This document shows positions 35,947 to 63,684 of a DNA stretch of 64,000 nt, piece after piece. The notes under the pieces were generated by a model. That model saw only the letters and a list, made by a program, of their open reading frames with translations. It had not been told where the DNA came from and searched no databases. The stretch is from Chlorobiaceae bacterium. Its GTDB lineage: Bacteria > Bacteroidota > Chlorobiia > Chlorobiales > Chlorobiaceae. The first letter of the stretch is position 1; every line of letters begins with the position of its first letter. The translations under genes and the position numbers were made by a program. Location: the NCBI GenBank assembly GCA_013334865.1, contig JAAXWS010000004.1, forward strand, positions 1 to 64,000. The letters are read 5' to 3'.

Positions 35947-35998
35947 CGTCGTACATCGAAACAGGGTCAGCTTGCTGGCCCTGTTTCGATGTACGACG
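35947..35998 (+). other. 52-bp near-perfect hairpin between hpf and hprK
   Basis: The two 25-base arms (35947-35971 and 35974-35998) are complementary throughout except for one G.U wobble (35967/35978), leaving a tiny loop. The left arm begins CGTCGTACATCGAAACAGGG. There is no U tract on either side, so it is not a standard terminator. It would fold in an hpf-hprK transcript 28 bases before the hprK start. Confidence 0.8.
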
Positions 35999-49350: not shown

Positions 49351-49390
49351 AAAAAAGAAAGGCCGCCTCTGCAGGTGGCCTTTCTTTTTT
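49351..49390 (+). terminator. Terminator of gcvPA
   Basis: A stem of about 18 bp (AAAAAAGAAAGGCCGCCT / AGGTGGCCTTTCTTTTTT, one G.T pair) with a four-base loop and a T run of eight, 14 bases after the stop. Confidence 0.88.
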
Positions 49391-49417
49391 TTAGATCTCG
49401 AAACGCGAGACAGCATG

Positions 49418-49483
49418 CTGGGGTCAGGTCTTGTATTTTAGCGTTTGCGAAGCAAAATGCTAAAATACAAGACCTGACCCCAG
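49418..49483. repeat. 66-bp palindromic element, copy 1
   Basis: Two perfect 25-base arms (49418-49442 and 49459-49483, left arm beginning CTGGGGTCAGGTCTTGTATT) enclose a 16-base centre that can pair further (GTTTGC GAA GCAAA). A second copy at 63621-63684 is identical except for one compensated base pair. It lies between the gcvPA terminator and the dapA stop. Confidence 0.9.
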
Positions 49484-57514: not shown

Positions 57515-57593
57515 CTTACATTCAGGAGGGATTCATCCCGACGGACATTCGGTTCTTACATTTTCCAGAGTTGCCCCGGGTTTTAACCCGGGG
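57515..57593 (-). repeat. Dispersed ~76-bp hairpin element, single copy
   Basis: On the minus strand it reads a 20-bp palindrome of CCCCGGGTT/AACCCGGGG arms (57574-57593), then CAACTCTGGAAAATGTAAG, GAATGTCCGTCGGG, ATGAAT, CCCTCCTGAATGTAAG. This is the same order of blocks as the tandem units at 1-178. The GGGA-TGAA-TCCC hairpin replaces GGGC-TGAAA-GCCC there. It begins seven bases after the bchG stop. Confidence 0.8.
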
Positions 57594-63620: not shown

Positions 63621-63684
63621 TGGGGTCAGGTCTTGCATTTTAGCGTTTGCGAAGCAAAATGCTAAAATGCAAGACCTGACCCCA
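63621..63684. repeat. Palindromic element, copy 2
   Basis: Perfect 24-base arms (63621-63644 and 63661-63684) around a 16-base centre identical to that of copy 1 at 49418-49483. The arms differ from copy 1 only at 63636/63669, where C-G replaces T-A. It lies between the ilvE start and the phosphofructokinase stop. Confidence 0.9.

Follow-up and report, generated by a model that had tools for sequence, protein, structure and literature searches.

Two palindromes in the window, that is, the whole 64,000-nucleotide stretch of DNA analysed here, raise a question that applies generally to hairpin-forming repeats: are the two arms kept identical by selection or by copying from one arm to the other? 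Both palindromes have 24-nt arms that flank an identical 16-nt centre, GTTTGCGAAGCAAAAT. Copy 1 (49418-49483) consists of the arm CTGGGGTCAGGTCTTGTATTTTAGC, the centre at 49443-49458 and the mirror arm; its core is 49419-49482, which one extra outer C-G pair extends to 49418-49483, and its neighbours are the convergent genes gcvPA and dapA. Copy 2 lies at 63621-63684 with its centre at 63645-63660. The sole arm difference is one compensated pair on the forward strand, T-A in copy 1 (T at 49434, A at 49467; T-type) and C-G in copy 2 (C at 63636, G at 63669; C-type). On direct reading of the sequence, the coordinates, the arm and centre lengths and the single compensated pair given in a preliminary description of this DNA were exact. 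The window copies have hairpin z-scores of -12 to -15, with none of 200 shuffles equally good, and all four occurrences of GGGGTCAGGTCTTG at up to two mismatches in the window (0.54 expected) lie within the two copies. The family to which they belong offers dozens of parallel copies, shared sites and species with and without a transposase, and selection and arm copying predict different patterns in such material.

A genome-wide count, which the preliminary description had suggested, brought up further copies. In the assembly under study, which comes from a green sulphur bacterium (G000; 2.42 Mb, 44 contigs), the 14-mer GGGGTCAGGTCTTG at up to one mismatch has 43 matches, as compared with one for the reversed control pattern. 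The matches resolve to 16 complete palindromes of the GGTCTTG type with GGGGTCAGGTCTTG ends, and there are also one GGCCTTG-type palindrome at a contig end, several contig-end half copies and single ends, which brings the family to about 18 copies including contig-end fragments. Contigs C4 and C32 apparently each carry one side of a single copy. C3 and C14 are identical over an overlap of 103 bases and then run into one and the same copy, but with oppositely oriented loops; this flip may be an assembly ambiguity, because with identical arms an assembler has no means of orienting the loop. The copy on C43, where the inverted repeat extends into the flanks at the contig end and looks like an assembly fold-back, was excluded from the arm statistics. 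A literature search for the 14-mer returned no paper.

Then, what provides these ends? At C7:6167-7145, family ends in inverted orientation flank an intact Y1 (HUH) transposase gene of 292 codons, the stop codon of which falls within the right end, and a second, contig-truncated Y1 gene on C22 likewise ends in GGGGTCAGGTCTTG. The preliminary description had proposed looking for just such a Y1 gene with the same ends. The transposase scores 41.9 bits against the Y1_Tnp profile PF01797 (cut-off 23). Transposases of Y1 subclass 2.1 are marked by NHYH/NHVH and Y[IV].LNP motifs and a C-terminal helix-turn-helix (HTH) extension. In the C7 protein the HUH (NHYH) and Y-x-x-NP motifs are present, and NNHYH and YIVLNP are invariant in the transposase alignment; several HTH profiles match residues 251-287 of the 292, all below cut-off. 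At position 15 the C7 element has C in its left end and T in its right end, so that copy 1 of the window is of the right-end type and copy 2 of the left-end type. Single C7 ends did not fold better than shuffles (z 0 to -0.9), and GTAG beside a stem is absent from the family ends.

The ends were compared with those of 80 related Y1 genes from many phyla, fetched by protein alone. The exact GGGGTCAGG was found at 59 left and 48 right ends of these relatives and in none of the shuffles, and GGGGTCAG, which bears GGGGWSAS, occurs at both ends of C7 and of most relatives. Both ends were recognised in 55 relatives; here the two ends of one element agree at 97% of the outer 14 nt and the ends of different elements at 92%, whereas for positions 15-26 the figures are 75% and 45%, respectively (0/10,000 shuffles). 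An end therefore consists of a nearly universal outer core and an element-specific inner part, an arrangement that suggests how a poorly studied Y1 subclass recognises DNA.

Within a set of 21 genomes of the genus, matches to the palindrome pattern numbered 17 in G000, 11 in G004, 12 in G007 and 2 in G018; the other 17 genomes had none, and the control gave 0. A full-length cognate transposase (at least 57% identity) was found only in G000, G004 and G007, and these three are also the only genomes of the 21 with more than two copies. Each of the three has palindromes that resemble the ends of its own element. The proteins of G004 and G007, whose elements have GGCCT ends, group in a single clade; that of G000 falls outside it, together with that of G032 from another genus, and these two have GGTCTTG ends in common. 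In the species tree G000 pairs with G018 (support 0.88), followed by G005 and then G008, and the GGTCTTG type is taken as derived because the GGCCTT type occurs in G005, G004 and G007. Arm mismatches are most numerous in the two G018 copies, two each, and G005, which is without the cognate gene, has kept decayed copies, although this comparison of decay involves small numbers.

Of the 16 G000 sites, 10 have a counterpart in G004, G007 or G018 that also bears a palindrome, and the site of copy 2 is occupied in both G018 and G007. The flanks of shared sites are 68-92% identical, mostly at least 80%, and the boundary is usually identical on at least one side. Six of the 11 G004 palindromes and at least four of the 11-12 G007 palindromes are at G000 sites, for which the chance probability, assuming merely 300 available sites, is 3e-6 and 1e-3, respectively. 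The arms of G000 differ from those of G004 and G007 by 5.9 edits per 24 nt at shared sites and by 6.1 at unshared sites; at shared sites they follow the ends of the resident transposase. Two histories would account for this: in-place overwriting of the old palindromes, or their loss followed by the entry of new ones into the same junctions. We tentatively put forward, with less than even confidence, that palindromes present before the species split were overwritten at fixed sites by the ends of the resident Y1 transposase, so that in the G000 and G018 lineage GGCCTTG...CAAAAnTTGC became GGTCTTG...ATTTTAGC at about ten sites. If true, a single-strand transposase would here have copied its ends over older palindromes in a homing-like manner, with the sites preserved. 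The site-conserved, transposase-matched turnover of arms appears to be new; the kind of element is known.

It is also possible, though we would not call it probable, that nothing was overwritten and that different palindromes entered the same junctions independently in each species. Insertion hot spots of this kind would agree with the G004 counterpart of the C39a site, which holds part of a different element family (GGGGACGTCC), with the metX/serS site of G004, which holds both families, and with a weak and short preference in the outside flank for AACnCT before GGGG. Loops, moreover, are no more alike at shared sites than elsewhere (p=0.16), and their resemblance was accordingly dropped as proof that palindromes persist in place while their arms change. 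Independent entry is harder to reconcile with the degree to which G004 and G007 share the G000 sites (P=3e-6 and 1e-3), mostly base-exact on one flank, and with G005, which is closer to G000 and at two shared sites still has older-type palindromes in decayed form, with half of one at a third. A search for base-precise empty sites, covering gcvPA/dapA in 15 relatives, metX/serS and nadE/nadB (ten relatives for each) and a further eight sites in G005 and other genomes, found none, because these intervals vary too much and other repeats often occupy them.

The convergent junctions that hold palindromes in G000 were seen in relatives to hold other short repeats, for instance GTCCATGACGTCCA-like or GATCAGTCTGATC-like runs (L158-L172; L217-L236; L313-L325); unrelated repeats seem to refill these pockets. 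In G007 (L286:1476-2432), the interval between hypE and a modE-like gene contains a modA-like gene flanked by palindromes on both sides; in G004 (L273:1486-2458) the modA-like gene is accompanied by one palindrome, and in G000 (L025, C30:91083) it is missing and a single palindrome is present, as if the G000 gene had been deleted by recombination between two palindromes.

Within a copy, the two arms change together. Among the cells of the 16 copies, 15 show the same departure from the consensus on both arms and 8 are discordant; these cells are not independent events. When whole arms were shuffled between copies, the observed concordance was reached in 0 of 10,000 trials, which bears out the covariation that the preliminary description had suggested testing. 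That description had also counted unpaired arm substitutions in a genome without a transposase against its reading: the eight one-sided differences are such substitutions, and the transposase gene is present. Six of the eight are at position 24, adjoining the loop. Two-sided changes private to one copy are GCGTTTT in C39a and GCTTTTT in C16a. With the window pair, in which one centre goes with two types, they make at least three changes that are hard to explain from a symmetrical ancestor. The distance between arms is 0.45 edits per 24 nt within a copy and 1.6-2.5 between copies of a genome, as against the 5.9 for the same site across sister species. At position 15 the G000 palindromes are 5 C/C, 10 T/T and 1 mixed, and one mixed copy or fewer would be expected from random arm pairing with P=0.0007. 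G032, a genome of the same taxonomic family, shows homodimers in 4/4 cases at the position that is diagnostic for it. In the two genomes with distinguishable element ends, G000 and G032, almost every palindrome is a one-end homodimer. This makes the palindromes mirror dimers of a single end, as opposed to left-right deletion products, unless arm-to-arm copying has homogenised them.

We regard it as likely that the palindromes are non-autonomous one-end dimers mobilised in trans, with arms that are homogenised by hairpin-templated copying. The same ends flank a Y1 gene, the palindromes are mirror copies of one end type, and the family occurs in quantity only where the cognate transposase does. 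The transposase would mobilise the palindromes in trans as single-stranded DNA and would recognise the outer GGGGTCAGG core plus the element-specific inner part. A mutation in one arm would be copied to the other, or erased from it, by hairpin-templated synthesis through replication template switching, which might occasionally also flip the loop; homogenised arms and inverted spacers are reported marks of template switching (PMC8604942, PMC8794818). The loop of copy 2 differs from its G018 counterpart by 4 edits when inverted and by 10 when read directly, and this is the only site with a clear loop inversion. The T-A versus C-G difference in the window would represent a copying event, or a conversion from the opposite end type, in one of the lines descended from a common ancestor. 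Against this reading, neither a transposition event nor a base-precise empty site came to light, and one-sided differences persist at position 24. The preliminary description had offered gene conversion between arms or selection on pairing; arm-to-arm copying best explains the compensated pair and is favoured, not proven, with selection on pairing less favoured.

Arm copying could be dispensed with if C/C and T/T lineages had each been born symmetrical from one end and spread by transposition with no correction, which we think rather unlikely. The two types do correspond to the left (C) and right (T) ends of the full-length element, and symmetrical dimers of each end type also occur in G032 and G004. 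Yet the window copies have a common asymmetrical 16-nt centre while their types differ on both arms, and the two further two-sided changes, each private, would need several lineages with one survivor apiece. Dead copies would also be expected to collect one-sided changes, and such changes are rare.

Improbable, finally, is selection on pairing, by which hairpins serving as bidirectional terminators or mRNA stabilisers between convergent genes would have their stems maintained by compensatory mutations, because the stems are so long that one mismatch hardly alters their stability. As DNA hairpins the palindromes reach -33 to -36 kcal/mol; their 24-27-pair stems are perfect in most copies, even though a single G-T mismatch should cost little stability. 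The location of the copies does suit such a role. Fifteen copies have two neighbours that could be assigned, and for ten of them these are convergent genes, as compared with a convergent background in the window of 17% of junctions (P=3e-5) or 26% of intergenic bases (P=1e-3), statistics that rest on the window and the fetched loci; several copies are only a few bases from both stop codons, and in several gene pairs the palindrome is nearly the entire intergenic sequence. However, insertion tolerance would equally give convergent placement, and at least four T directly follow the stem in only 3 of 16 right flanks. An intrinsic terminator was rejected as the identity of the element, as no terminator-like site was called at copy 1. 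TTTTT occurs near copy 1, and copy 2 is without such a run. A separate intrinsic-terminator-like hairpin (49352-49391, forward strand), with counterparts in many relatives, adjoins copy 1 downstream of gcvPA and lies outside the element. The convergent location fits insertion tolerance, and may suit a terminator role as well.

Its gene and its ends place the element in the TIRYT/TIRtron kind (Y1 subclass 2.1), which is related to RAYT/REP but distinct from canonical REPs. The preliminary description had likened the ends to those around REP and Y1-mobilised sequences; the link to a Y1 transposase held, and canonical REP gave way to this kind. Genes of this type have been described as TIRYTs within TIRtrons, with a GGGGWSAS motif and terminal inverted repeats (TIRs) that also occur as dimers (Di Nocera et al. 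2013, PMC3733652), and most TIRYTs were placed in Y1 transposase subclass 2.1 (Quentin et al. 2018, PMC6006769). The likeness comprises a subclass 2.1-type Y1 gene inside long terminal inverted repeats with GGGGWSAS (PMC3733652, PMC6006769) and genomic TIR sequences as dimers and single copies (PMC3733652); in the sections consulted, neither paper reports one-end homodimers, arm covariation or dimers at conserved sites that match the resident transposase across species (PMC3733652, PMC6006769). The shared outer motif is 14 nt here and 8 in TIRtron/TIRYT.

REPINs resemble the palindromes in being short and non-autonomous, with two inverted repeats and a cognate Y1 transposase acting in trans, in having conserved outer parts and a variable spacer with compensatory changes, and in that copies match their own transposase and lone ends are remnants (Bertels and Rainey 2011, PMC3116915). 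In contrast, the family ends have neither a REP hairpin nor a GTAG or CGTC foot, the copies number about 18 and not hundreds, and the transposase is longer. It scores 75 bits against the NCBIfam REP-associated tyrosine transposase NF047646, below the cut-off of 80; with this score and no end hairpin, canonical REP/RAYT was rejected. With IS200/IS605 the element has in common a HUH single-tyrosine catalytic domain, and single-strand chemistry is probable. It differs in its long inverted-repeat ends in place of subterminal hairpins, its Y-x-x-NP motif in place of Y...Q and its C-terminal extension, and IS200/IS605 identity was set aside on the YIVLNP motif and the lack of an end hairpin. Quasipalindrome template switching likewise makes inverted-repeat arms identical and inverts the spacer, but was reported in yeast coding genes and in RNA genes, whereas here it would concern a mobile-element family at many parallel sites (PMC8604942, PMC8794818). 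No Rfam family exceeded the gathering threshold at the loci L019, L021 and L031.

A sister family of Y1 genes, encoding about 330-350 aa, has GGGGACGT ends (L303, L300, L053, L055), with a further location of this family at G005:C8:828. G004 has four near-perfect palindromes that match its own sister-family element (GGGGACGTCCTTAAATTGCTTAAGTAA; C56:57969, C117:3526, C123:16291 and C129:9771); end-dimer palindromes therefore arise in the sister family too. At L055 (G000:C31:7616-10936), several GGGGACGTAAGTGAAT ends in both orientations are clustered around one Y1 gene, which suggests nested or tandem elements. The window itself holds other repeats. Three direct copies of CTGAAAGCCCTCCTGAATGTGGGAT, spaced by 76-77 bases, occupy positions 1-191 and partly recur in inverted orientation at 57532-57587, and another near-perfect palindrome, CGTCGTACATCGAAACAGGGTCAGC, with 25-nt arms, a 2-nt gap and a sequence unrelated to the family, is found at 35947-35998.
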